Shown: one piece after another, positions 3,137 to 19,327 of the stretch | How positions within the stretch are numbered: position 1 is the first letter of the stretch | Layout of the letters: each line of letters begins with the position of its first letter | Assembly (NCBI RefSeq): GCF_019090095.1 | Contig: NZ_JAGQFP010000001.1 | Coordinates: forward strand, 1-64,000 | Direction: 5' to 3' | Source of the DNA: Stutzerimonas stutzeri | Lineage (GTDB): Bacteria > Pseudomonadota > Gammaproteobacteria > Pseudomonadales > Pseudomonadaceae | DNA: 64,000 nucleotides | Notes under the pieces: generated by a model | The model's database searches: none | Seen by the model: only the letters and a program-made list of their open reading frames with translations | Told to the model about the DNA's origin: nothing | Made by a program: the position numbers and the translations under genes

Positions 3137-5107
3137 TTAGAGGACGCGTCCGCCATCATCCCGGCTGATGATCACCGTGGCCGAGCGAGGCCTGCGGTTT
3201 GCTCCGTCCGGCCATGTGCTGGTGTATTCGGTCGAGCTGGAGCCTTCTCCCGGATGCTGGATGTTGACGAACAGGGTCCGAAAATCCGGTGTTGCGGTAA
3301 TGCCTGTCACTTCGGCGCCTACCGGGCCTACCAGGAAACGCTTGGTTTCACCTGTCCGCGGATCCGAGACCAGCATTTGATTGTTGCCGAACGGACCTCG
3401 TTCCAGCTGGCTGCCGCTCATGTCGGTCTGTATCCAGAGCCGCCCGTCGCTGTCGAACCAGAGTCCGTCTGGACTGGCCAGAATGTTCTCTTCACTCAAC
3501 GGCTTGCCCGCTGGGTCGCGGCTATCGGTCTGAGGGCCGGCGAGAAGATAGAGATCCCAGTGAAACTGTGTGCCGCTGTGGTTCGATGACGCCTCTCGCC
3601 ACCGGATGATGTGGCCATAGGGGTTAGGGGCTCGAGGATTGGCAGCGTCGGCATCTTGCCGCGCAGTGTTGTTTGTCAGCGTGAAATACACATCACCGGT
3701 GCCGGGATGCACCGCGCCCCATTCGGGCCGGTCCATGCGGGTCGCACCGACAATGTCCGCAGCGAGGCGGGTATTGATCAGGACGTCGCCCTGATCGCTG
3801 AAGGCGACACCTGCCGCAGCGCACGCCTGCTGGAAGCCTGCATCGTCGATATCCAGCGGTAACCAGTCGCCACTGCCGTCCGGGTTGAAGCGCGCTACAT
3901 ACAAAGTGCCGTCGTCAAGGAGACGGCTATCGCTGTGCTGGGGGCGGTACTTGTCACGGCTGACGTATTTGTAGATGTACTCGTTCTGCGAATCGTCGCC
4001 GGAATAGCAGACGACTGGCGCCCCCGGACGGGTAGGGGCAAACACCAGTCCTTCATGGGCAAAGCGTCCGAGGGCGGTGTGTTTGATCGGAGTGGAGTCG
4101 GGATCGAACGGATCGATCTCAACGATCCAGCCAAAGGTATTGGGCTCGTTGCGGTAGTCGGCACGAGCATCTTCGGACGACACCGTGGCATCGAAACGCT
4201 GGAACTCGTCGCCCGGAATCGTTTCCCAGCCGTAACGGCTGGTGGCGCGTATACCGTAGCGCTTCAGCTGTCGAGGCAGCTCCGCATCGCGGCTCGCGAA
4301 ATAGCCCGCCCAGTTTTCCTCGCATGTCAGATAAGTACCCCAAGGCGTATAGCCGTTCGAGCAATTGTTCAGCGTTCCCCGGGTCGAGGTACCGCTCGGG
4401 CTATACCGCGTTTTCATCAGATCATGACCCCGGGCCGGCCCCTCGATTCGCATAGGCGTGGCGCCAGTGATGCGCCGATTCCGGGCCGAAGGCAGCATGG
4501 CCCATTCGCCCCGGACGCTGCGGCGAATTTCCACGATCGATACGCCATGAGCGTTGATTTCCTTGCGGACTTCATCGGCGTTGACACGCTTGCCGTTGAC
4601 CTCGGTTGGGCCGTTGCGGTGAAGCAGCGGCGGATCGATGTATTCGTGATTCACCGCGAGCAGCCCGTGGTCGCTCTTGCGTCCTCTGAACTTCGCATCC
4701 ATCGGGAAGAAATGCATGCCATCGTGGTGCATGCCGGTCTGCTGCGCCTGGTCTTGCGCGCTGTTGCCGCCATCTTCCAGATAGCCTGGGTAGCTGCCGC
4801 AGATCGGCGTGCCCCATGGGATGAATGCCTTTGCCGTATAGCCGGATGGAACCGTAACCCTGTCCGCTCTGGTTATGCGCACGGCGTCGAATGGCAAATT
4901 GCTGCGGCGTTTGAATAGCGCTGACGGCTTGGCCGCGTCCGCCAGAGCAGGCAAGCTGCCGAGGAAGGCGAGCGCACCCAGCGCCGCACCGCCGGCCAGA
5001 ACCTTGCGCCGCCCGAGATTGATGACGTCTTGAATATGAGGATTGCCTGAACGGTTGCTCGGCAGTTCATCGCCATTGCCGAACAGGATGTTGTTATCGT
5101 CAGTCAC
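3137..5107 (-). CDS. phoX: PhoX-type alkaline phosphatase (DUF839), Tat-exported
   Basis: Calcium/iron-dependent periplasmic phosphomonoesterase of the PhoX/DUF839 family, 656 residues. The N-terminus has a long n-region and a twin-arginine motif at 33-34 (NLGRRKVLAGGAA) followed by a hydrophobic stretch ending ALADAA, so it is exported folded through Tat. Family blocks include LAVNHEYIDP, NCSNGYTPWGTYLTCEEN, HTALGRFAHEG and YSGDDSQNEYIYKYVS. The start is a GTG with GGAG 7 bases upstream. A Pho-box-like repeat lies about 50 bases upstream, consistent with PhoB control under phosphate limitation. Confidence 0.92.
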   Translation of the reverse strand: MTDDNNILFGNGDELPSNRSGNPHIQDVINLGRRKVLAGGAALGALAFLGSLPALADAAKPSALFKRRSNLPFDAVRITRADRVTVPSGYTAKAFIPWGTPICGSYPGYLEDGGNSAQDQAQQTGMHHDGMHFFPMDAKFRGRKSDHGLLAVNHEYIDPPLLHRNGPTEVNGKRVNADEVRKEINAHGVSIVEIRRSVRGEWAMLPSARNRRITGATPMRIEGPARGHDLMKTRYSPSGTSTRGTLNNCSNGYTPWGTYLTCEENWAGYFASRDAELPRQLKRYGIRATSRYGWETIPGDEFQRFDATVSSEDARADYRNEPNTFGWIVEIDPFDPDSTPIKHTALGRFAHEGLVFAPTRPGAPVVCYSGDDSQNEYIYKYVSRDKYRPQHSDSRLLDDGTLYVARFNPDGSGDWLPLDIDDAGFQQACAAAGVAFSDQGDVLINTRLAADIVGATRMDRPEWGAVHPGTGDVYFTLTNNTARQDADAANPRAPNPYGHIIRWREASSNHSGTQFHWDLYLLAGPQTDSRDPAGKPLSEENILASPDGLWFDSDGRLWIQTDMSGSQLERGPFGNNQMLVSDPRTGETKRFLVGPVGAEVTGITATPDFRTLFVNIQHPGEGSSSTEYTSTWPDGANRRPRSATVIISRDDGGRVL

Positions 5108-5157
5108 GACGCAGCTCCATAGGATAATCGACGGAACTGAGACGCTAGGCCGCGCTT

Positions 5158-5175
5158 GCGACAGCTTGGTGACAG
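5158..5175 (-). promoter_or_regulatory. Pho box upstream of phoX
   Basis: On the minus strand this reads CTGTCAC-CAAG-CTGTCGC, two 7-base repeats separated by four bases, close to the PhoB consensus CTGTCAT-N4-CTGTCAT. It sits 51-68 bases upstream of the phoX start, a sensible place for activation. Confidence 0.65.
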
Positions 5176-5219
5176 GACGATGGCGACCGACAGGCGGTCG
5201 GCGAGTGCGCGTTAGATGC

Positions 5220-5247
5220 GCCGGCCCGTTTGGCGCTGCGGGCCGGC
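5220..5247. other. Perfect 9-bp stem-loop between the TAXI gene and phoX
   Basis: GCCGGCCCG, ten unpaired bases, CGGGCCGGC. It lies downstream of the TAXI operon on the minus strand but has no T run, so it may be a 3' stabilising or Rho-associated hairpin rather than an intrinsic terminator. Confidence 0.4.
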
Positions 5248-5304
5248 ACGCGACGCCGGCATGCCTGCCACCTTCGGCGCAGCCGGCCCCGTGAAGCGAC
5301 TCCC

Positions 5305-6279
5305 TTAGAGCCAGCCTTTCTCCCGGTAAAAGCGCTCGGCGCCTTCATGCAACGGCGCGGTCAGGCCGACGCGAATCATGTCCTTGGCTTCCAGATCGGC
5401 AAATGCCGGATGCAGGCGCTTGAAGCGGTCGAGGTTGTCAAACACGGCCTTGACCAACTGATAGACGATCTCGGGATCGGTCTTGGACGTCGTGGCCAGC
5501 ACCGCCTTGCCGCCAATCGAGGGCACCGCGTTATCGACGCCGGGGTACAGCCCCGCCGGGATTTGCGCCGCGGTGTAGTAGTCGGCTTGTTGCAAGAACG
5601 CGTCGATTTCCGGCCCGGTCACCGGGATGAGCTTCGCATCGACATTGGTGAGGGCTTCCTGAATCGCCCCGCTGGGATGACCGACCACATAGGTGATGAC
5701 GTCGAGGTTGTTATCGCCCAACGCGGAAGCCATCTCGGCGGGCTTGAGCTCCCCGGCCAGCGCGAAGTCGGCGTTGCTCCAACCCTTGGCCTTCATGACC
5801 TCGTCGAAGGTGTCGCGGCTACCCGAACCGGGCACACCGATATTGACCCGCTTGCCCTTGAGGTCATCGAACGACTCGATGCCGCTGTCGCTTCGCGCGA
5901 CGACCGTGAGAATTTCGGTCTGCAAAGAAAACACCGCACGGAGTTCCTCGATCGGGCCCTTCTTGTCGAACGGAGCGAGGCCGTTCAGGGCCTTGTGCTG
6001 GTGATCGGACTGAATGAAGCCGAACTCGTATTCACCACTTTCCAGCGACACGATGTTGGTCACGCTACCGGCTGTGGACGGTGCATTGCATTTGATCGCC
6101 GGCTGCACCTCGGCGCGATTGAGAAAACGGCATACCGACTGGCCGGCCGTGTAGTAGACGCCGGTCTGACCGCCAGTGCCAATAGTGACGAAACGCTCCT
6201 GGGCGACCGCGGTGGCGGCGCTCAAAGAGCCCACCAGGGCGCACTGCAGGAAGGCCATACGGATTTTCTGCTTCATCAT
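5305..6279 (-). CDS. TAXI-family TRAP transporter substrate-binding protein
   Basis: Periplasmic binding protein of the TAXI class (324 residues). It has a signal peptide (MMKQKIRMAFLQCALVGSL, then AATAVAQ) followed by the family start RFVTIGTGGQTGVYYTAG; other TAXI blocks are YEFGFIQSDHQHKA and the lobe motif KRVNIGVPGSGSRDTFDEVM. I start at the ATG at 6279 because AGAGGG precedes it; the open frame extends further upstream without a ribosome site. It is the third gene after the dadA-like and ridA genes, so the ligand is probably an amino acid or keto acid. Oddly, no fused TRAP permease gene is near. A CA-rich Crc/Hfq-type motif touches the leader. Confidence 0.88.
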   Translation of the reverse strand: MMKQKIRMAFLQCALVGSLSAATAVAQERFVTIGTGGQTGVYYTAGQSVCRFLNRAEVQPAIKCNAPSTAGSVTNIVSLESGEYEFGFIQSDHQHKALNGLAPFDKKGPIEELRAVFSLQTEILTVVARSDSGIESFDDLKGKRVNIGVPGSGSRDTFDEVMKAKGWSNADFALAGELKPAEMASALGDNNLDVITYVVGHPSGAIQEALTNVDAKLIPVTGPEIDAFLQQADYYTAAQIPAGLYPGVDNAVPSIGGKAVLATTSKTDPEIVYQLVKAVFDNLDRFKRLHPAFADLEAKDMIRVGLTAPLHEGAERFYREKGWL

Positions 6280-6288
6280 GATTCCCTC

Positions 6289-6301
6289 TTTTGTTGTTGT
6301 T
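6289..6301 (-). promoter_or_regulatory. CA-rich (Crc/Hfq-type) motif in the TAXI gene leader
   Basis: On the minus strand AACAACAACAAAA lies directly upstream of the AGAGGG ribosome site. It fits AANAANAA, the motif bound by Hfq/Crc in Pseudomonas catabolite repression. Confidence 0.5.
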
Positions 6302-6368
6302 CGTACGGGGTTTGCGATTCCACACAGGGTAACCGTTCCATGTCGGTTGCCCGGTTCGGCGTGGCTGA

Positions 6369-6722
6369 TCAGGCAGTGGCGGCGATTACCATGACCTCCA
6401 CGAGCACGTTTGGCGAGGCGAGGCGCGCTTCGACCGTTGCCCGGGCGGGTGCGCATCCTGCTGGTAACCATTCGCACCAGACGGCGTTCATCGCCGCGAA
6501 GTCGGCCTCTATGTCTTTCAGCCAGATTTGCGCGCTGAGTATTCGCGAGCGATCGGAACCGGTCGAGGCCAGCAAACGGTCAATCTTGGCTAGGACCTGG
6601 CGGGTCTGGCCGGAAACATCTTCACCTCGGTCATCCGGTACTTGCCCGGCAAGAAAAGTCAGACCGGCAAAGGTAACGGCGGCCGACATGCGCTCCGTGG
6701 TGTCGAGGCGTTGAATTGTCAT
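6369..6722 (-). CDS. RidA family enamine/imine deaminase
   Basis: Cytoplasmic trimer-forming protein of the RidA/YjgF family (117 residues), which hydrolyses reactive enamine/imine intermediates released by amino-acid oxidation. Visible signs are the GLTFLAGQVP strand near residues 19-28, the helix block QVLAKIDRLLASTGSD, and the C-terminal APARATVEARLASPNVLVEVMV, where the family arginine (R in ARATVE) contacts the substrate carboxylate. The ribosome site GAGAGGAA precedes the ATG. It lies 27 bases after the DadA-like oxidase, and pairing RidA with a D-amino-acid dehydrogenase is chemically sensible because the oxidase makes imines. Confidence 0.92.
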   Translation of the reverse strand: MTIQRLDTTERMSAAVTFAGLTFLAGQVPDDRGEDVSGQTRQVLAKIDRLLASTGSDRSRILSAQIWLKDIEADFAAMNAVWCEWLPAGCAPARATVEARLASPNVLVEVMVIAATA

Positions 6723-6749
6723 GTGAGGTTCCTCTCTCGGTGGTGGTGA

Positions 6750-7994
6750 TCACGCCGCAAGGGTGAGGCCGTCGAGCGTAACGGCGGGGCGCTGATGGTC
6801 GATGAGGTCGCAGAGCACGTCGGCGCTGCCGCAGGCCAGGGTGAAGCCGAGACTGCCATGGCCGACGTTGAGCCAGAGGTTGTCGAACGGCGATGCACCG
6901 AGCAGCGGTGTACCCTCCGGCGTTGCTGGCCGCAGGCCTGCCCATTGCGTCGCGTTGCGATAGTCGCCAGCGCCGGGGAATGTCATGCCGGCGAGACGTT
7001 GCAGCATGGCGATCCTGCCTCGGTCGAGCGTGGCGTCCCAGCCGCCAATGTCCACCATCGCCGCTACGCGCAATTGATCGCCAAGCCGCGCGTAGACCAC
7101 CTTGTTGTCGTAGTCGGTCACGTTGGTCTCCGGCGCGTCGAGCGGGCGGCGCAGCGGTAGCGTCAGGCTATAACCCTTGAGAGGGTAGATCGGCAGCTCG
7201 ATGCCCAGCGGCTTGAGCAATGCCACACTGGCGGCGCCGGCCGCCACGACCACGTGATCCACTGCCAGCGACTCGTTATCGAGGCTCAGCGAGCGGATGC
7301 GCGCACCCTGGGTGTGCAGCGCACTGACCGCACGGCCACAGTGCAACCGGAAGCCGGGCGACTCTTCCAGCCGCTCGAGCAGCCGCTGACAAAACAACTG
7401 GCAATCGGCGGCCTCGTCGCCTGGTGAATAGAGCCCACCCTGCAGTTCATCCGCGAGCGGGCGCAAGGCGGGTTCGATTTCGCCGCATCGCTGGGCGTCG
7501 AGTACGAGCTGTCCGGTACTCGCGTCGAAGCCGCTGATGGCCTTCTCGAAACTGGACCGATCGCGATAGATCACCAGCTTGCCATTGGCACGCCAGGCAA
7601 AATCGCTCAGCCCGTCCTCCTCGCGCCACGTGCGTAGGACTTGCTGACTGTGCAGAGAGAGGCGCAACAGACGCTCGGCGTTGCGTCGATTGGTGGAGCG
7701 TCGGCAGGCGAGCAGAAAACGCAGGCACCAGCGCCACTGCTGCTTGCTCAGCCTCGGACGGAAACGCAGAGGAGCATCATCTCCGCGCAGCAGCCAGCCA
7801 AGCGCTTGCAGCGGAACACCTGCATCGGCAAGCGGCGAGACGTAGCGGTAGCTGAGCTGGCCCCCATTGGCGAAGCTGGTCTCCAGGGCAACCTGGTCCC
7901 GCTTCTCGATCAGGTCCACCTGATGGCCTCGCCGTAGCAAGGCATAGGCTGTGCTCAACCCGATGACGCCGCCACCGATCACCGCAATTCGCAT
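6750..7994 (-). CDS. FAD-dependent D-amino-acid dehydrogenase (DadA-like)
   Basis: Flavoprotein of the DAO/DadA family, 414 residues, expected to oxidise a D-amino acid (or related amine) to the imino acid at the inner face of the membrane. The N-terminal dinucleotide fold is clear (VIGGGVIGLSTAYAL, then an acidic residue at the end of the second strand). ETSFANGGQLSYRYVSPLA is the DadA-type FAD/substrate block, and GLRPATPEGTPLLGAS then GHGSLGFTLACGSA is the C-terminal FAD motif. First gene of the dadA-ridA-TAXI run on the minus strand, divergent from a LysR regulator that probably controls it. The substrate is not determined. Confidence 0.88.
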   Translation of the reverse strand: MRIAVIGGGVIGLSTAYALLRRGHQVDLIEKRDQVALETSFANGGQLSYRYVSPLADAGVPLQALGWLLRGDDAPLRFRPRLSKQQWRWCLRFLLACRRSTNRRNAERLLRLSLHSQQVLRTWREEDGLSDFAWRANGKLVIYRDRSSFEKAISGFDASTGQLVLDAQRCGEIEPALRPLADELQGGLYSPGDEAADCQLFCQRLLERLEESPGFRLHCGRAVSALHTQGARIRSLSLDNESLAVDHVVVAAGAASVALLKPLGIELPIYPLKGYSLTLPLRRPLDAPETNVTDYDNKVVYARLGDQLRVAAMVDIGGWDATLDRGRIAMLQRLAGMTFPGAGDYRNATQWAGLRPATPEGTPLLGASPFDNLWLNVGHGSLGFTLACGSADVLCDLIDHQRPAVTLDGLTLAA

Positions 7995-10238: not shown

Positions 10239-10504
10239 AACACCTGCACCAGGTGATAGCCGAATGCGCTCTTGATCGGGCCGTGGATGTCACGCAACGG
10301 CTTCTTGAAAATCACCTGATCGATGCTGCGGACCATCTGCCCGGGGCGGACCTCGCCGAGGTCGCCACCTTTCTTGCCAGACGGGCAGGTCGAATATTTG
10401 CGCGCAAGCACGTCGAAGGCCTCGCCGTTGGCAATGCGCTTTTTCAGCTGGGCCGCTTCGGCTTCGGTCTTCACCAGGATATGGCGGGCCATGGCTTTTG
10501 CCAT
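10226..10504 (-). CDS. ppiC: Parvulin-type peptidyl-prolyl cis-trans isomerase
   Basis: Single-domain parvulin of 92 residues without a signal peptide, so cytoplasmic. The full rotamase fold is visible: ARHILVKTEAEA at the start, the FDVLARKYSTCPSGKKGGDLGEV block, and GYHLVQV near the end. It catalyses proline isomerisation during folding. Overlaps the end of zapE and is divergent from the gluconate operon. Confidence 0.94.
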   Translation of the reverse strand: MAKAMARHILVKTEAEAAQLKKRIANGEAFDVLARKYSTCPSGKKGGDLGEVRPGQMVRSIDQVIFKKPLRDIHGPIKSAFGYHLVQVFYRD

Positions 10505-10640
10505 TGTGAAAGCTCCTCGTCAGGGGCGGCGATTGTAGCCAGCGTGCCGGTCAAACCGAAGCGGCATCACCGAAAACCGGACCGTTCATCGTGGATTGTT
10601 TCCGACGAACGGTCTTTCGATTGGTTTTATGGGTAGAGAT

Positions 10641-10652
10641 GTTAGCGCTACC
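10641..10652. promoter_or_regulatory. Putative GntR operator upstream of the gluconokinase-TRAP gene
   Basis: The palindrome TAGCGCTA (10643-10650) in the context TGTTAGCGCTACCA lies about 55 bases before the GTG start. Its reverse complement TGGTAGCGCTAACA matches a second site at 11285-11298 at 13 of 14 positions. TAGCGCT is, to my recollection, the core reported for Pseudomonas GntR; a LacI-type GntR is the last gene of this operon. Confidence 0.6.
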
Positions 10653-10703
10653 ATTCGGCCCAACAATCATAACGCAGCACGTCGAAGCTGCTGGAGAGCC
10701 ATA

Positions 10704-11843
10704 GTGGATCGCCACTCCAATAGCCCTTTCCCCACTGCCCACCGAGCTCTAGTGGTGATGGGGGTCAGTGGTTCGGGTAAGACCGATACCAGTCACGCCG
10801 TTGCCGATGCGCTGGGTTTCCGGCATATCGAAGCCGATCATTTTCACCCCGAAGAAAACGTCGCGCGCATGCGTGCCGGCACGCCGCTGTCGGATGCCGA
10901 TCGCGTCGAGTGGTTGCAGAAGCTGATCGTCGAGATGCAGCGCGCCATCGATGACGACGTTGGTTTCGTGCTCGCCTGTTCGGCCCTCAAGTGCCGCTAC
11001 CGCGACCTGCTGCGTCATGCCGTTCCCGGCCTACGTTTCGCCCATCTGGCCATCGATTACGACACCGCCGTGCAGCGTGTCGGCGGTCGGGCCGGGCATT
11101 TCATGCCGATCTCGCTGGTCGACAGCCAGTTCGCCACGCTCGAATCACCCGAAGGCGAACCGGGCGTGCTGGTCGTCGACGCCAGCCAGTCGCGCGAGCA
11201 GGTGCTCGAGGAAGTCGTCGATTGGATGCAGCGCGAGCCGGGGTTGGAGATCGGCGAGCGTGAAGGTTTTTCTGCCGCTCCGCCTGATAGCGCTAACACG
11301 CCGCCGCACGGTGCTGAGCTGACTGGTTCGCCGATCTACAACGGACGCGTCGCGCAAGGTTTCGATCGCATCACCGACTGGCTGATGGCGGCATTGCTGG
11401 CGTTCATGGTCGTCGTGGTGTTCAGCAGCGTGGTCCTGCGCTACGCCTTCGGCACCGGCTGGACCGGCGCCGAAGAGCTGTCGCGGCTGGCCTTCGTCTG
11501 GCTGGTGTTCGTCGGGGTCGCCTCCAGCATGCGCCGTGGCGAGCTGATGGCCTTCAGCATGATTCGCGACCGTTTCCCCCTGTTGTTCCGCCGCGTGGTG
11601 GATTCCATCAGCTGGATCATGGTCGCCGTCGCCAGCGGCCTCGCAGCAGTGGGCGGCTGGCATCAGATGCAGTTCGGCTGGAGCATCACCAGTCCAGTAG
11701 TGGGTTACCCATTGGCGGTGGCCATGCTTCCGGTGGCTGCCAGCATGGTCGCGTTGACGGTGCTGGCCTTGATCCAGCTCGTTAACGTCTGGCGTCGACA
11801 GCCGCCCGAACATATCGCCGAAGCCAACGTAACGGCCGATTGA
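10704..11843 (+). CDS. Gluconokinase fused to TRAP small permease (GntK-DctQ)
   Basis: One 379-residue reading frame encodes two normally separate proteins. Residues about 14-185 are a GntK-type gluconokinase (P-loop GVSGSGKT at 20-27, EADHFHPEENVARMRAGTPLSD, CSALKCRYRDLLR), which makes 6-phosphogluconate. Residues about 205-379 are a DctQ-type small TRAP subunit with four membrane segments, the first at DWLMAALLAFMVVVVF. The GTG at 10704 has GGAGAG six bases upstream; the frame is open further upstream but without a ribosome site. There is no ATG, GTG or TTG in frame in the linker that could restart translation before the first membrane segment. The linker codons at 195-198 (D-S-A-N) carry a second putative GntR operator, suggesting a former intergenic region. 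dctM and dctP homologues follow. Confidence 0.85.
   Translation: MDRHSNSPFPTAHRALVVMGVSGSGKTDTSHAVADALGFRHIEADHFHPEENVARMRAGTPLSDADRVEWLQKLIVEMQRAIDDDVGFVLACSALKCRYRDLLRHAVPGLRFAHLAIDYDTAVQRVGGRAGHFMPISLVDSQFATLESPEGEPGVLVVDASQSREQVLEEVVDWMQREPGLEIGEREGFSAAPPDSANTPPHGAELTGSPIYNGRVAQGFDRITDWLMAALLAFMVVVVFSSVVLRYAFGTGWTGAEELSRLAFVWLVFVGVASSMRRGELMAFSMIRDRFPLLFRRVVDSISWIMVAVASGLAAVGGWHQMQFGWSITSPVVGYPLAVAMLPVAASMVALTVLALIQLVNVWRRQPPEHIAEANVTAD
11285..11298. promoter_or_regulatory. Second putative GntR operator, inside the fusion gene
   Basis: TGATAGCGCTAACA with the palindrome TAGCGCTA at 11288-11295. It is placed exactly between the kinase and permease domains and matches the upstream site at 13 of 14 bases. 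It may act as an internal operator or be a relic of a promoter that once preceded a separate dctQ gene. Confidence 0.55.
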
Positions 11844-11852
11844 TCTTCCGAT

Positions 11853-11862
11853 AACAACAAGG
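11853..11862 (+). promoter_or_regulatory. CA-rich motif before the gluconate TRAP large permease
   Basis: AACAACAAGG in the 44-base gap between the fusion gene and the large permease gene fits the AANAANAA Hfq/Crc target; the ribosome site itself (GAGG) follows about 15 bases later. Confidence 0.4.
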
Positions 11863-11887
11863 GCAGACGCCCACCCGAGGTCCGTAC

Positions 11888-13165
11888 ATGACTGTCGTCG
11901 TCTTTCTCTCGTCATTGTTTGGCTTCATGGCCTTCGGCATGCCGATCGCCTTCGCGCTGATCCTCACCGGCGCGGTGCTGATGTGGTATCTGGATTTCTG
12001 GGACGTGCAGCTGCTCGCCCAGAACCTGCAGGCCGGGGCCGATAGCTTCCCGCTGCTGGCCGTGCCGTTCTTCATTCTCGCTGGCGAACTGATGAATGCC
12101 GGTGGCATTTCCCGGCGCATCATCAACATGGCGCAGGCCTACTTCGGCCACAAGCGCGGTGGTCTCGGCTACGTGGCGATCGCCGCATCCGTGCTGCTGG
12201 CAAGCATGTCCGGCTCGGCGCTGGCCGACACCGCCGCACTGGCGACCCTGCTGCTGCCGATGATGCGCGAACGCGGCTATCCGCTGAGCCCGTCCTCGGG
12301 GCTGGTGGCGGCCGGTGGCATCATCGCACCGATCATTCCGCCGTCGATGCCGTTCGTGATCTACGGCGTGGTCACCAACACCTCGATCAGCCAGCTGTTC
12401 CTCGCCGGGATGGTGCCGGGCCTGATCATGGGCGCCGGGCTTGTCGTGGCCTGGACGCTGATCGCCCGCAGGATCGAAGAACCGCCTCAGGCGAAGGCCA
12501 GCGGAGCCGAACGCCGCAAGGCCCTGGTCGATGGCGCCGCGGCGCTGATGCTGCCGGTGATCATCGTCGGCGGTTTGCGCTTCGGCCTGTTCACGCCCAC
12601 CGAAGCGGCCGTGGTAGCAGCGGTCTATGCGCTGCTGGTGTCGACGCTGCTGTACCGTGAGCTGAGCTGGAGCGGTGTTCTCGAGGTGCTGACCCGCGCT
12701 AGCCGCACCACGGCTTCGGTGATGTTCCTCTGTGCCGCCGCCATCGTATCGGCCTACATGATCACACTGGCCCAGCTACCGGACGAGATCGCTGCCATGC
12801 TCGGGCCGCTGGCTGAAGACCCGAAGTTGCTGATGTTCGCCATCATGGTGCTGATGATCGCCATCGGCATGGTCCTCGACCTGACCCCGACCATCCTGAT
12901 CCTGGGGCCGGTACTGGCGCCCATCGCGGTCAAGGCGGGCATCAACCCGGTGTACTTCGGCGTGATGTTCGTGCTGATCGGCTCGATCGGCCTGATCACC
13001 CCGCCGGTCGGCACGGTGCTCAACGTCGTCGGTGGGATAGGGCGGTTGCGCATGGAAACACTGGTGCGTGGTGTCACGCCGTTCTTCGCCATCTATCTGG
13101 TCATCGTACTGCTGCTGATCGCAGTGCCGTCGATCATCACCGTGCCGCTGCAGTGGCTGCGGTGA
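11888..13165 (+). CDS. TRAP transporter large permease (DctM family), probable gluconate uptake
   Basis: Large membrane subunit of a TRAP importer, 425 residues with roughly twelve hydrophobic segments. Family blocks are visible: FFILAGELMNAGGISRRIIN, SGSALADTAALATLLLPMM, IIAPIIPPSMPFVIYG, and GLITPPVGTVLNVV near the end. It uses a sodium or proton gradient and works with the DctQ half of the preceding fusion protein and the DctP protein that follows. The kinase fusion and the GntR gene argue that gluconate or a related sugar acid is carried. Confidence 0.92.
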   Translation: MTVVVFLSSLFGFMAFGMPIAFALILTGAVLMWYLDFWDVQLLAQNLQAGADSFPLLAVPFFILAGELMNAGGISRRIINMAQAYFGHKRGGLGYVAIAASVLLASMSGSALADTAALATLLLPMMRERGYPLSPSSGLVAAGGIIAPIIPPSMPFVIYGVVTNTSISQLFLAGMVPGLIMGAGLVVAWTLIARRIEEPPQAKASGAERRKALVDGAAALMLPVIIVGGLRFGLFTPTEAAVVAAVYALLVSTLLYRELSWSGVLEVLTRASRTTASVMFLCAAAIVSAYMITLAQLPDEIAAMLGPLAEDPKLLMFAIMVLMIAIGMVLDLTPTILILGPVLAPIAVKAGINPVYFGVMFVLIGSIGLITPPVGTVLNVVGGIGRLRMETLVRGVTPFFAIYLVIVLLLIAVPSIITVPLQWLR

Positions 13166-13173
13166 TCGGCCGG

Positions 13174-13212
13174 AACAACAATCGCTTCACCCAACCCTCC
13201 ACAACAACAAAA
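13174..13212 (+). promoter_or_regulatory. Two CA-rich motifs before the gluconate TRAP binding-protein gene
   Basis: AACAACAA at 13174-13181 and ACAACAACAAAA at 13201-13212; the second runs into the ribosome site AAGG before the ATG at 13224. Both fit AANAANAA, the Hfq/Crc target in Pseudomonas. Confidence 0.5.
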
Positions 13213-13223
13213 GGTACGTCAGC

Positions 13224-14240
13224 ATGAAACGTTTCTTCATCGCGGCCCTCGCCGCCACCACCCTGACCAGCGCCATCACCGCGGTAACCGCACAGGCGGC
13301 AGATGACATTCGTCCGCGCATGATTCGCTTCGGTTACGGCCTCAATGAAGACAGCAACCAGGGCCGTGCAGCCAAGGTTCTTGCCGAGGAAATCGCCAAG
13401 GCCTCCGATGGCAAGCTCAAGGTCCGCACGTTCGGCTCCGCCAGCCTGGGATCCGATGACCAGATGCAGAACGCGCTGATGGGCGGCGCCCAGGAGATGA
13501 TGGTCGGCTCGACGGCGACCCTGGTGGGTGTCGCCAAGGAGATGGCCGTCTGGGATACGCCGTTCCTGTTCGAAAGCGAGAAGCAGGCCGACTACGTGCT
13601 CGACGGTCCGGTGGGACAGAAGGTCATGGATGCCCTGGAGAGCAAGGGTCTCGTCGGCCTGGTCTACTGGGAAAACGGCTTCCGCAACCTGACCAACAAC
13701 GTGCGTCCGGTCGAGACGATGGAAGACTTCAACGGCATCAAGCTGCGCGTCATGCCCAACCCCGTGTTCATCGATACCTTCAAGCAGATGGGCGCCAACG
13801 CGGTGCCGCTGCCGTTCTCCGAGCTGTTCACCGCGCTGGAGACCAAGGCTGTGGACGGTCAGGAAAACCCCTACAACACCATCCTGTCGTCCAAGTTCTA
13901 CGAGGTGCAGAAGTACCTCAGCGTCACCAACCACGTCTACAGCCCCTGGATCGTCACCGCTTCCAAGCGCTGGTGGGACGGCCTGTCGAAGACCGAGCAG
14001 GACATCATCATGGACGCGGCGAAGAAGGCTCGCGATTCCGAACGTGAAGACACCCGTGCCGAAGCCCGCGAAGCCCTGGCGAAGATCAAGGAGCACGGCA
14101 TGCAGGTCAACAAGGTCAGCCCGGAGCAGATCCAGCGCATGCGTGAGCAGGCCAAACCGGCAATCCAGACCGTGGTCGACACGGTCGGCGAGCCGCTGTT
14201 CAACGAAGTGCAGGCCGAGATCGAGAAGGCTCCCAAGTAA
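13224..14240 (+). CDS. TRAP transporter substrate-binding protein (DctP family)
   Basis: Periplasmic binding protein of 338 residues. Signal peptide at 1-24 (MKRFFIAALAATTLTSAIT, cut after AQA). The DctP fold is shown by IRFGYGLNEDSNQGRAAKVLAEEI, YWENGFRNLTNN and the ligand-carboxylate arginine in IKLRVMPNPVFIDTF, then ALETKAVDGQENPYN. Last transport gene of the operon and followed by the gntR gene; ligand probably gluconate. Confidence 0.92.
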   Translation: MKRFFIAALAATTLTSAITAVTAQAADDIRPRMIRFGYGLNEDSNQGRAAKVLAEEIAKASDGKLKVRTFGSASLGSDDQMQNALMGGAQEMMVGSTATLVGVAKEMAVWDTPFLFESEKQADYVLDGPVGQKVMDALESKGLVGLVYWENGFRNLTNNVRPVETMEDFNGIKLRVMPNPVFIDTFKQMGANAVPLPFSELFTALETKAVDGQENPYNTILSSKFYEVQKYLSVTNHVYSPWIVTASKRWWDGLSKTEQDIIMDAAKKARDSEREDTRAEAREALAKIKEHGMQVNKVSPEQIQRMREQAKPAIQTVVDTVGEPLFNEVQAEIEKAPK

Positions 14241-14243
14241 CCT

Positions 14244-14265
14244 GGCGCGCCCCTTCGGGGGCGCC
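14244..14265 (+). terminator. Stem-loop between the binding-protein gene and gntR
   Basis: GGCGCGCCCC-TTCG-GGGGCGCC, a strong bulged hairpin with a UUCG loop and no T run after it. More likely a 3' stabiliser or partial terminator that lowers gntR expression relative to the transport genes. Confidence 0.4.
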
Positions 14266-14307
14266 GTCCCGTTGTAGAATCTCCGCCCCTTACCGCTGGA
14301 ACCTGCT

Positions 14308-15327
14308 ATGAGTTCTCGTCGTCGCCGTTCACTGGAGCGGGCCACGTTATCCGACGTCGCTCGTAGTGCCGGTTGTTCGCTGATGTCCGCTTCGCGTGCC
14401 TTGTCGCAGCCCGAACGGGTTTCCGATGCGCTGCGTGAGCGCGTGATGGCAGCGGTCAAAGCGCTGGGCTACGTGCCGCACACCGCCGCACGCAACCTGG
14501 CGAGCGCGCGATCGAATCTGGTCGCGGTCATCATCCCGTCGCTGTCGAACGCCGTGTTCGTCGACACCGTCGAGGCGATTCAGCGGGTCCTCATGCCAGC
14601 CGGTTATGAACTCATGATCGGCGTCAGTCATTACCATCCAGACGAGGACGAGCGGCTGTTGCGTGCCTATCTGGCGCATCAGCCGGCAGGCCTGCTGGTG
14701 ACTGGCTTCGAGCGCAGCGATGCCGCGCGCGAGCTATTGGGCAGCTATTCCAGCCCGATCGTGACGCTGATGGAATTGAGTGACACCGAGGAAGAGTATT
14801 GCGTCGGCTTTTCCCAATACGATGCCGGCGCGGCGATGACACGCAAACTGCTCGAACGCGGCTATCGGCACATTGCCTTTGCCGCCGCTCAGCTCGACCC
14901 GCGCACCTTGCAGCGTGCCGAGGGCTACCGAAGCGTCATGCGCGAGGCGTCCCGCTACGACGCTGCGCTGGAGCTGCTGACCCCGCAGGTTTCATCCATT
15001 GGGCTTGGCGCTGAGTTGCTCGACCGCTTGCTGGCACAGCATCCGCAGATCGATGCAGTCTTTTTCAACAACGACGACCTGGCGCTGGGTGCGCTGTTTC
15101 GTGCGCGTCAGTTGCAACTGGCCGTCCCGCAGCGCCTGGCCATAGCCGGCTTCAACGATCTGCCGGCGGCAGCCTGGATGAATCCGGCGCTGACCACGGT
15201 ACGCACGATCCGTGGCGAAATCGGCATGCTGGCCGGGAAGATGCTGCTCAGCCTGATGCGTGGCGAGGCACCGCCGCAACGGCGCATCGATGTGGGGTTC
15301 GAAGTGGTGATGCGCGACAGCGCCTGA
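14308..15327 (+). CDS. gntR: LacI-family transcriptional repressor GntR
   Basis: LacI-type repressor, 339 residues: helix-turn-helix at about 11-35 (TLSDVARSAGCSLMSASRALSQPERVS), hinge helix at about 50-60 (PHTAARNLAS), then a sugar-binding core with periplasmic-binding fold. Similar to gluconate repressors, and the final gene of the gluconokinase/TRAP operon. Expected to bind the TAGCGCTA sites at 10643 and 11288 and to be released by gluconate or 6-phosphogluconate, repressing its own operon. Confidence 0.88.
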   Translation: MSSRRRRSLERATLSDVARSAGCSLMSASRALSQPERVSDALRERVMAAVKALGYVPHTAARNLASARSNLVAVIIPSLSNAVFVDTVEAIQRVLMPAGYELMIGVSHYHPDEDERLLRAYLAHQPAGLLVTGFERSDAARELLGSYSSPIVTLMELSDTEEEYCVGFSQYDAGAAMTRKLLERGYRHIAFAAAQLDPRTLQRAEGYRSVMREASRYDAALELLTPQVSSIGLGAELLDRLLAQHPQIDAVFFNNDDLALGALFRARQLQLAVPQRLAIAGFNDLPAAAWMNPALTTVRTIRGEIGMLAGKMLLSLMRGEAPPQRRIDVGFEVVMRDSA

Positions 15328-15370
15328 ACCGGCGCGGCGCGTGTTGCACGTGCCGCCATTCACCCAGCGA

Positions 15371-16282
15371 TCAGTCCGCCTGTTGCGCCGTCACCTGTTG
15401 GGCGATTTCGATCATCTGCTCACGCATCCAGCGGTTGGCCGGATCCTGGTCGGTGCTTTCGTGCCAATAGATGTGGGTTTCCAGCGGCGGGATGTCCACC
15501 GGCAGGGGAATCTGGTGCAAATCGTGGCGACGGGCGAAACGCTCCGGCACGGTAACCGCCATGTCGGTCTGCTGAATTACCTGGGTGGCCATCATGTAGT
15601 GCTGCGAACGCAGCGCGATCTTGCGCTGCTGGCCCATCTTGCCAAGCGCCAGATCGACCATGCCCAGCCCGCTGCGACGGCTGGAGATATGGATATGCGA
15701 CAGCGACAGGTACTCGTCGACGCTGAGCTTGTCTTTGGCCAGCGGGTGGCCGCGGCGCATGGCGCAGACGTAGCGGTCTTCCAGCAGTTTGACGTGGCGC
15801 ACCTGCGGATCGGTATTGAGCGGGGCATCCATGGCGAAATCCAGGCGGCCGGCGGCGAGTTCCTTGGTGGTCTCGCGGCGTTTGGCGAGCATGCTCTCGA
15901 TCTTGACGTTGGGCGCCAGCCGACGCAGGCGCTGGAACAGCGGCGGCAGCACCACGGCCTCGGTGAGGTCGGTCATGCTGATGCGGAAGGTCTTGTTCGC
16001 TTGCAGCGGGTTGAAGGTGCGGCTTTCCTGAACCGAGACACGTAACAGCTGCAGCGCATTACGTACCGGCCCGATGATGTTCTGTGCCATCGGCGTCGGC
16101 ACCATGCCCTGCGCGGTGCGGACGAACAGCGGGTCATTGAAGGTCTCGCGCAGGCGTGCCAAGGCGTTGGAAACGGCCGGCTGGGTGATGCCGACGATCT
16201 GTCCCGCGCGGGTCAGGTTCGCCTCGGTGTAGATCGCGTCGAAGACAATGAATAGATTCAGATCGACCTTGTTCAGGTTCAT
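15371..16282 (-). CDS. LysR family transcriptional regulator
   Basis: LysR-type regulator of 303 residues from the ATG at 16282, which gives the standard start MNLNKVDLNLFIVFDAIYTE; the upstream extension is not typical of the family. Helix-turn-helix in NLTRAGQIVGITQPAVSNALARLR; effector domain from about 90. The DLNLF start places it in the NodD/LeuO/NahR-like group. Divergent from the acyl-CoA dehydrogenase gene, its most likely target, with about 145 bases of AT-rich control region between. Confidence 0.9.
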   Translation of the reverse strand: MNLNKVDLNLFIVFDAIYTEANLTRAGQIVGITQPAVSNALARLRETFNDPLFVRTAQGMVPTPMAQNIIGPVRNALQLLRVSVQESRTFNPLQANKTFRISMTDLTEAVVLPPLFQRLRRLAPNVKIESMLAKRRETTKELAAGRLDFAMDAPLNTDPQVRHVKLLEDRYVCAMRRGHPLAKDKLSVDEYLSLSHIHISSRRSGLGMVDLALGKMGQQRKIALRSQHYMMATQVIQQTDMAVTVPERFARRHDLHQIPLPVDIPPLETHIYWHESTDQDPANRWMREQMIEIAQQVTAQQAD

Positions 16283-17803: not shown

Positions 17804-19327
17804 CTAGGGCACTACTGTGCGCAGATCCGGCGGCGTTTGTTGACCATGGGTGTCGATGACCAGTCGCCGATAGCGCCGATAGGCCTGTTCATAAGCCCGG
17901 ACCGATTGCGCCTGCGGCTCGACCGCTGTGCCTTCATCGACCCGCACGCAGCGCGCGCACAGCGCCGCGAGACTTGCGATGGGGTTGCTCTGTCGCGCAT
18001 GGCACCACGCCGCCTGTATTGCGCCGCCCAGCGCCGCGGCTTCGCTGTGGGTGGTGCAGACCACCGGGGTTTCCATCACGTCGGCGACGATCTGGCGCCA
18101 CAGTGGATTCTTCGCGCCGCCGCCGATCAGCTGGATGCGCTCGCTGCGGATGCCGCTTTCGCGCAGCAGGTCCAGGCCATAGCGCAGGCCGAAGGTCACG
18201 CCCTCGACGACGGCCCGGCAAAGGTTCGCGCGGGTGAGGTTTTCGGTGGTCAGGCCGTGCAGGCTGGCGCTGGCCTGGGGCAGGGCGGGAACGCGCTCGC
18301 CGTTGAGGAAAGGCAGCATGCTGATGCCCTCGCAGCCAATCGGGGCCTGCGCGACGAGTGCGTTGAATGATTCGAGATCGAGCTGCAGCAGGTCGCGGAT
18401 CGCGGCGTTGGCGTTGGTCAGGTTCATGGTGCAAATCAGCGGCAGCCAGCCGCCACTGGACGAGCAGAAGGTGGCGACTGCTGGCTGCGGGCTGATGCGC
18501 GGCGCGTCGGAATAGGCGTACAGCGTGCCGGAGGTGCCGAGGCTCATGGTGATGGCGCCGGGGCGGATGTTGCCGGTGCCGATAGCGCCCATCATGTTGT
18601 CGCCGCCGCCGCTGGATACGATGGCGTCAGGGTTCAGCCCCAATTGCTCGGCGATCTCCGGGCGCAGCCGGCCGACCGCTTTGTCCGGCTCGATCAGCTC
18701 GGGCAATGCGGCCTCCAGCCGACCGCTCGGGTCGATGTGGCGCAGGATGCCGAGGTCCCACTCACGCGTTTGTACGTTGAAATAGCCAGTGCCGGAGGCA
18801 TCGCCGTACTCGGCGCAGGCGCGCCCGGTGAGCCAATGATTCAGGTAATCGTGGGGCAGCAGGATGTGCGCGATCCGCTCGAAGCGTGCGGGGTGCTGCG
18901 CCTTCATCCACAAGAGTTTCGAGACGGTGTAGCCCGGCGCGATGACGACGCCGAGGCGCTCGAGCGAACCCTGTTCCCCGCCCAGCCAGTCAAGCAGTGC
19001 GGCGTTTTCCGTAGCCGATTCCGTGTCGCACCAGAGCTTGGCCGGGCGCAGTACCTGGCCGTCGCGGTCGAGCGTGACCAGCCCGTGTTGCTGCCCGGAC
19101 ACACCGATGCCCAGCACCTCGCGACCGTCCACTCCGGCCTCGGTCAGGGCCGCTCTCGTCGCGGTGGCGAACGCGGTCGTCCATTGCGTAACGTCTTGCT
19201 CGCGGCGGCCATTGGCGCCGCTGATGAGCGTGTGCGCCGCCGAGCCCTGGCCCAGCACGCGCCCGCTGGCGGCGTCGAGCAGCAATGCTTTGGTGCCCTG
19301 GGTGCCGCAATCGATGCCGAGGTACAT
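17804..19327 (-). CDS. xylB: Xylulokinase
   Basis: FGGY-family sugar kinase, 507 residues, phosphorylating D-xylulose to xylulose 5-phosphate. Start block MYLGIDCGTQGTKALLLDA is the phosphate-binding motif; GVSGQQHGLVTLD and the C-terminal ATP block LIGGGAKNPLWRQIVADV are typical. It lies 10 bases after mtlD, the order seen in pseudomonad mannitol/arabinitol operons (where it is called mtlY), so it handles the xylulose made from D-arabinitol. Confidence 0.93.
   Translation of the reverse strand: MYLGIDCGTQGTKALLLDAASGRVLGQGSAAHTLISGANGRREQDVTQWTTAFATATRAALTEAGVDGREVLGIGVSGQQHGLVTLDRDGQVLRPAKLWCDTESATENAALLDWLGGEQGSLERLGVVIAPGYTVSKLLWMKAQHPARFERIAHILLPHDYLNHWLTGRACAEYGDASGTGYFNVQTREWDLGILRHIDPSGRLEAALPELIEPDKAVGRLRPEIAEQLGLNPDAIVSSGGGDNMMGAIGTGNIRPGAITMSLGTSGTLYAYSDAPRISPQPAVATFCSSSGGWLPLICTMNLTNANAAIRDLLQLDLESFNALVAQAPIGCEGISMLPFLNGERVPALPQASASLHGLTTENLTRANLCRAVVEGVTFGLRYGLDLLRESGIRSERIQLIGGGAKNPLWRQIVADVMETPVVCTTHSEAAALGGAIQAAWCHARQSNPIASLAALCARCVRVDEGTAVEPQAQSVRAYEQAYRRYRRLVIDTHGQQTPPDLRTVVP

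Follow-up and report, generated by a model that had tools for sequence, protein, structure and literature searches.

An in-frame fusion of gluconokinase to a TRAP small permease subunit, common in Pseudomonadaceae, with a conserved GntR-operator-like word in its coding linker

In operons under LacI/GalR-type repressors, auxiliary operators can lie inside coding sequence, as does lac O2 in lacZ. The GntR repressor of Pseudomonas aeruginosa has a site with TAGCGCT and represses gntR and gntP, and it is released by gluconate and 6-phosphogluconate, as reported in the accessible part of PMC5902321. GntR footprints on AGCGCT sites, one of them between gntK and gntP, are described for P. plecoglossicida in the part of PMC12195362 that was available, and the form GACAGCGCTA is also among those footprints.

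Here we describe an operon in a 64,000-nucleotide stretch of Stutzerimonas stutzeri DNA (the window) in which a gluconokinase and the small subunit of a TRAP importer are encoded by one gene. Its features are as follows.

10640..10653, no strand assigned: O1, operator-like palindrome TGTTAGCGCTACCA upstream of the gene; TAGCGCTA lies upstream in the compared loci too
10693..10698, plus strand: Shine-Dalgarno-like GGAGAG, five bases 5´ of the GTG at 10704, spotted by eye
10704..11843, plus strand: fusion gene gluconokinase-linker-DctQ, GTG start, 379 aa, from the open frame and profile matches
10749..11231, plus strand: gluconokinase domain, residues 16-176 (TIGR01313; PDB gluconokinases by sequence and fold)
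11232..11345, plus strand: linker, residues 177-214, mostly with pLDDT < 50
11285..11298, no strand assigned: O2, operator-like palindrome TGATAGCGCTAACA within the part of the gene that encodes the linker
11346..11795, plus strand: DctQ, TRAP small subunit (PF04290; model helices 215-249, 256-277, 293-327 and 334-364)
11888..13165, plus strand: DctM, TRAP large permease (PF06808, TIGR00786)
13224..14240, plus strand: DctP, TRAP solute-binding protein (PF03480, TIGR00787; nearest solved relative 7bbr)
14308..15327, plus strand: GntR, LacI-family repressor (NF052440, 477 bits, cut-off 400)

A preliminary description of this DNA had proposed that a GntK kinase, with its P-loop and gluconate block, shares one frame with a four-segment DctQ, and each of these elements was borne out. 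The frame is open from 10704 to 11843, and profile searches placed both domains above their cut-offs: TIGR01313 gluconokinase at residues 16-176 (176.3 bits versus 113.75, profile positions 1-163 of 164) and PF04290 DctQ, full-length, at residues 235-365 (83.9 bits versus 28.3, positions 1-132 of 132). The P-loop GVSGSGKT is intact, and G20, G25, K26, D45 and H48, among other residues, are invariant in 28 aligned fusions. The best solved relatives of the kinase part by sequence are the gluconokinases 4eun, 3t61 and 1knq; those of the DctQ part are weak and are the TRAP permeases 8y4w (27.3 bits) and 9pym (25.9 bits). In a structure model built from 28 sequences (mean pLDDT 70.9, pTM 0.47), the kinase is mostly confident, the linker, predicted to be disordered, mostly falls below 50 and four long helices are seen at moderate confidence, with gluconokinases ranking first in a Foldseek search. 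Four predicted helices and a DctM gene next door are what is expected of a TRAP small subunit. The single-frame GntK-DctQ fusion is real; by curated score, its kinase, with intact P-loop and gluconate block, is of the GntK/IdnK type, and phosphorylation of gluconate is predicted.

The middle loop of the DctQ part carries six lysines plus arginines, the other two loops one and none. Since these charges favour an inside N-terminus, the kinase would be held at the cytoplasmic face by a flexible linker of ~38 residues; a location at the inner membrane face, as had been suggested, fits the loop charges and the predicted topology, with the membrane tether itself a prediction. Tethering through the linker would give equal numbers and closeness of kinase and importer; it would not by itself amount to substrate channelling, at which the preliminary description had taken the coupling to hint.

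The rest of the operon points to a sugar acid. GntR exceeds the equivalog cut-off of NF052440, the Pseudomonas GntR model; it had been called adjacent to the fusion, which holds insofar as the two share an operon but is loose wording for what is the fourth gene. By far the closest solved relative of DctP is 7bbr (344 bits), which we take to be CxaP. The ligands of CxaP are given as xylonate, fuconate, galactonate and gluconate in the accessible portion of PMC12076931. Because gntR and a gluconokinase share the operon, and in line with the closest solved relative of DctP, the importer most likely takes up gluconate; the GntR and DctP matches agree with the earlier reading of a gluconate-type operon, in which the substrate is still a prediction. 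We considered whether the TRAP importer replaces GntP, for which this genome has a weak match only (26.2 bits, cut-off 22.5), and rejected the idea: several genomes of the genus combine a strong GntP match with the fusion, which shows that one does not exclude the other. Elsewhere in the same genome, an unlinked second gluconokinase-like gene (L002, G000:C4:51124-51600; 36% identical) adjoins what by eye is an apparent Rieske-type oxygenase gene. The window also encodes, upstream of the operon, a TAXI-family TRAP solute-binding protein (5305-6477, minus strand; TIGR02122, 323.9 bits), a TRAP class different from that of the operon, and, a few kilobases from the sugar-acid operon, a xylulokinase (17804-19327, minus strand; TIGR01312, 601 bits).

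The genome search proposed with the preliminary description, for GntK-DctQ fusions as against separate genes, found the fusion in 45 of 56 genomes of the genus by row count: 42 end-to-end matches plus three with a longer linker in one open frame (G023, G032, G053). In the other 11, the domains are in different frames (G047), a close kinase stands alone (G007, G016, G044), the kinase is of the GntP-associated type (G035), only a more distant kinase is found (four genomes) or none is (two). At least 72 of 398 family genomes carry the fusion, with genus codes g1 (45), g15 (22), g6 (3) and g4 (2) among the matches listed. Named records, which largely overlap with the genomes of the genus and family draws, match over both domains at 72 of 80 loci among the matches listed; the carriers are Stutzerimonas species and Pseudomonas species such as P. 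mendocina, P. oleovorans, P. alcaliphila and P. luteola. Across 71 in-frame loci, the linker has 16 different lengths, from 31 to 64 codons, and the frame is conserved.

Unfused neighbours were found outside the family. Draws of 369 class genomes and 398 phylum genomes, the latter including family members, gave no fusion outside Pseudomonadaceae among matches with an E value of 1e-25 or lower; more distant fusions could escape, and the protein search covered the best 120 of 740 proteins. Outside the family, G937 alone gave a spanning match, which a stop interrupts between the domains, and L211, which first looked spanning, is two genes overlapping by four bases. Within the genus, G047 is the only genome with kinase and DctQ in different frames; there (L087, about 4681-5765) the kinase stop overlaps a TTG able to start DctQ, a re-splitting or an assembly error, and relatives have intact copies.

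The coupling of a kinase to a TRAP subunit had been called unusual, a view that does not hold within Pseudomonadaceae, where it is common and the kinases form one clade. In a tree of 54 kinase rows, this clade unites all 19 sampled fusion kinases (100/100), and the split form (G047) and the kinase-only relatives fall inside it. Since both nest there, they are most simply read as later losses, and the fusion has probably been maintained in Pseudomonadaceae from one origin. The GntR of fusion operons, represented by two fusions and G047, groups with that of five unfused TRAP operons (100/99). An AU test rejected fusion and GntP-type kinases as one clade when L068 was left out (p 0.0154), but gave p 0.398 with it; L068 groups with the GntP-type kinases in the kinase tree. 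The fusion kinase may have come either from the unfused TRAP operons or from GntP-type pseudomonads. At the kinase-only loci of G007, G044 and G016 (L088, L089, L090), no match to DctQ, DctM, DctP or GntR was found within the 12 kb read, and a closer reading of two of them showed the kinase frame running into the next, LysR-type gene before it ends. These genomes keep the kinase without TRAP genes or gntR there, so the tether is not a requirement of the kinase domain.

The linker also contains a conserved DNA word. O2 (TGATAGCGCTAACA), which encodes the DSAN block, is a near twin of O1 (TGTTAGCGCTACCA), and both are palindromes with the TAGCGCT/AGCGCT core of the GntR operator consensus; binding of GntR to them is predicted. 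The TAGCGCTA core is found in the linker of 65 of 71 in-frame fusions versus 1.3 expected under synonymous randomisation with each gene's own codon use, a count that treats loci as independent when many are close relatives, such that the spread over g1, g4 and g15 is the better argument. Adding the split G047 gives 66 of 72 loci; with G031 as well, the core is present in 66 of 72 in-frame fusions, or 67 of 73 loci overall. In 66 of 66 loci, the third base of the codon preceding the block is T, across nine different encoded residues (T makes up 13.5% of third positions); G031, with TTA, is the exception to this rule. At the alanine of the block, GCT is used in 98% of 66 rows, compared with 12.1% of the alanine codons in these genes. 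Mean pairwise identity among 13 diverse fusions is 85% in the DSAN block and 70% in the kinase domain, but 25% before the block and 23% after it. Conservation of O2 is thus at the level of DNA. Five fused loci have no linker site (L017, L101, L102, L103, L114) and another has the variant GACAGCGCTA (L127); since these six of 73 loci stay fused without TAGCGCTA, O2 is not essential to the fusion. O1 and O2 are 645 bp apart in the window and 629-664 bp apart in 66 loci, among which their helical phasing showed no single phase and no clear pattern. A GltR word, GGTTTTTC, noticed by eye in the linker at about 11264, was dropped, as some relatives encode other residues there.

The 14-base palindrome is also specific genome-wide. 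In the genome of the window, TGNTAGCGCTANCA occurs at O1 and O2 only, and 47 of the 56 genus genomes have the site, 42 exactly twice and five (G001, G031, G043, G050, G052) once. It is absent from G007, G011, G016, G022 (only 71% complete), G025, G035, G038, G044 and G051, all nine without the fusion. The control pattern, read backwards, was found zero to two times per genome across the 56, in 23 places in all versus 89. Allowing up to two mismatches gave six matches in the window, a number reached by 6 of 100 shuffles, so only exact matches carry weight. Individual positions of the sites cover the genomes up to G046. G009 is an exception, with two TGNTAGCGCTANCA sites but no fusion. These sites (L220, about 3375-7000, G009:C66) are 201 bp apart and lie between another LacI-type gene and what by eye is an apparent TonB-type receptor; the LacI-type gene is 37% identical to GntR and perhaps encodes a sister regulator with a similar operator.

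Comparison with unfused relatives suggests where the word may have come from. Of 12 unfused loci, all with a GntP-family permease gene after gntK, 9 have an AGCGCT site that follows the gntK stop at a distance of 6-27 bp. The three without a site (L081, L093, L098) have a distinct GntP subtype that shares 84-100% identity with the one in G035, compared with 35-36% for the subtype of the nine site-bearing loci. The distance from the kinase domain end to the site is 36-47 nt in these nine unfused loci, and in 63 of 66 fusions it is 57 or 60 nt (42, 54 and 69 in the others). Because the distances are similar, the linker site occupies roughly the place that the intergenic operator has in the relatives, and the linker looks like a translated intergenic region that is still kept as a repressor site. 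Five unfused TRAP operons (L034, L036, L060, L061, L067; L060, L034 and L061 were read further as L091, L094 and L095) keep kinase and DctQ as two genes, with DctM next and gntR divergent; none has an AGCGCT site within 250 bp after gntK, so common descent of the linker site and the intergenic operator is no more than a possibility. In L211, a Brucella endophytica record, TGAAAGCGCTTTCA at 1166 is upstream of gntK and a similar TGAAAGCGCTTGCG is found at 1784, at the dctQ start, perhaps a parallel operator at the gntK-dctQ junction.

Several other explanations for the fusion and its linker word were weighed. A sequencing or assembly error hiding a stop or start between the domains, named at the outset as a case that would undo the fusion, is ruled out by the relatives: no point in its favour was found, dozens of other assemblies have this frame open as well, and the chance of such an error is negligible. 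A less remote but still unlikely alternative is that an internal promoter at the linker site yields downstream proteins without the kinase, perhaps including a separate DctQ, with the fusion being one of two products. Action of GntR at a gntP promoter is reported for P. aeruginosa (PMC5902321, accessible part), and in 37 of 71 in-frame loci a start codon in frame lies past the linker operator, accompanied by a Shine-Dalgarno-like word in 7 of the 37. Against this, ATG, GTG and TTG are all absent between the kinase domain and the first membrane helix in 20 of the 71, and no start position is common to all loci. The preliminary description had stated that these codons are missing between the domains of the fusion. 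Taken literally, this is wrong, as an in-frame TTG (11244-11246, residue 181) sits there, flanked by an ATG at the end of the kinase domain (11226, residue 175) and another in the first membrane helix (11385, residue 228); in substance it stands, there being no conserved internal start, and in the window none lies in the domain gap after the site. A scan of 10500-15400 found no sigma-70-like promoter (0.9 expected by chance), though it also missed any at O1, and the P. plecoglossicida authors, in the available part of PMC12195362, speculate that the gntK-gntP gap is without a -10 element. The case for a separate DctQ from an internal start is weak.

Two further alternatives concern the word itself. 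It could be a relic of a former intergenic operator, with no present role, kept by chance and shared descent, as the six loci that stay fused without the exact core and the inflation of the counts by close relatives would allow. We regard this as improbable, given that the core is kept in fusions of g1, g4 and g15 and its preceding third base across nine residues, while the flanks average 23-25% identity. Selection for the peptide rather than the DNA is more improbable again: DSAN or DSAT is indeed conserved in the protein, but the codons GCT, AGC and GAT are fixed far beyond their usage, the base before the block is fixed over nine residues, and the word matches an upstream site where no protein is read.

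We therefore favour, as the probable reading, a maintained fusion in which the kinase is attached at the cytoplasmic N-terminus of DctQ in a sugar-acid TRAP importer, likely for gluconate, and the linker holds a GntR operator, O2. Gluconate captured by DctP in the periplasm would be taken in through DctQ-DctM and turned into 6-phosphogluconate by the attached kinase while still at the membrane. GntR, the product of the last gene of the operon, would sit on O1 and on O2, 645 bp further on, and let go once gluconate or 6-phosphogluconate binds. O2 might strengthen repression, either through a loop formed with O1 or as a roadblock to RNA polymerase ahead of the transporter part; that this GntR binds O2, and how O2 acts, is what we infer from the comparisons above. 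A fuller proposal, which we offer only tentatively, is regulation at the seam: the linker would serve as tether in the protein and as a working GntR stop between kinase and transporter, the gap having become coding without losing its role, and the kinase would phosphorylate gluconate as it enters.

The fusion is well supported and partly recognised by automatic naming, since databases already label some members as fusions, with names such as "Multifunctional fusion protein"; the new point, absent from the preliminary description, is the conserved repressor-type site in the coding linker. A literature search, with most subscription journals outside it, turned up no recognised account of a gluconokinase-TRAP fusion or of a linker operator, and to our knowledge no TRAP importer carries its own metabolic enzyme. 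With the first catabolic step covalently tied to an importer, and this arrangement common across two well-studied genera, kinase-transporter coupling becomes testable in strains that laboratories commonly grow. The linker is a clean case of how intergenic DNA may become coding yet keep a regulatory word, and a comparison set exists in the unfused, fused, fused but site-less and kinase-only relatives. Synonymous codons alone could alter the operator, making the role of the DNA separable from that of the protein.

Among known systems, O2 resembles lac O2 in being a second operator inside the coding region of its own operon and at a distance (645 bp from O1), but its place is the linker that joins two fused proteins, unfused relatives have a similar site in intergenic DNA, and looping is putative. 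The CxaP-type sugar-acid TRAP importer represented by 7bbr has the closest solved binding protein to DctP, whose ligand here is predicted; we know of no kinase fusion for that importer. TRAP Q-M fusions such as 9pym "DctMQ" likewise place the small subunit in a fused polypeptide, but join two transporter subunits, whereas here the partner is an enzyme. The unfused gntK-dctQ-dctM(-dctP) operons with divergent gntR (L034, L036, L060, L061, L067, L211) have the same gene order as the fusion operon, and their GntR groups with that of the fusion operon in a tree without L211; they differ in having separate kinase and DctQ genes, and the five other than L211 have no AGCGCT within 250 bp. Finally, Pseudomonas gntR/gntK-gntP, as described in the accessible parts of PMC5902321 and PMC12195362, likewise has a LacI-type GntR, a GntK-type kinase and sites upstream of gntK and between the kinase and transporter genes; here, by contrast, the transporter is of the TRAP type with its small subunit fused to the kinase, the second site is coding, and gntR is downstream instead of divergent.
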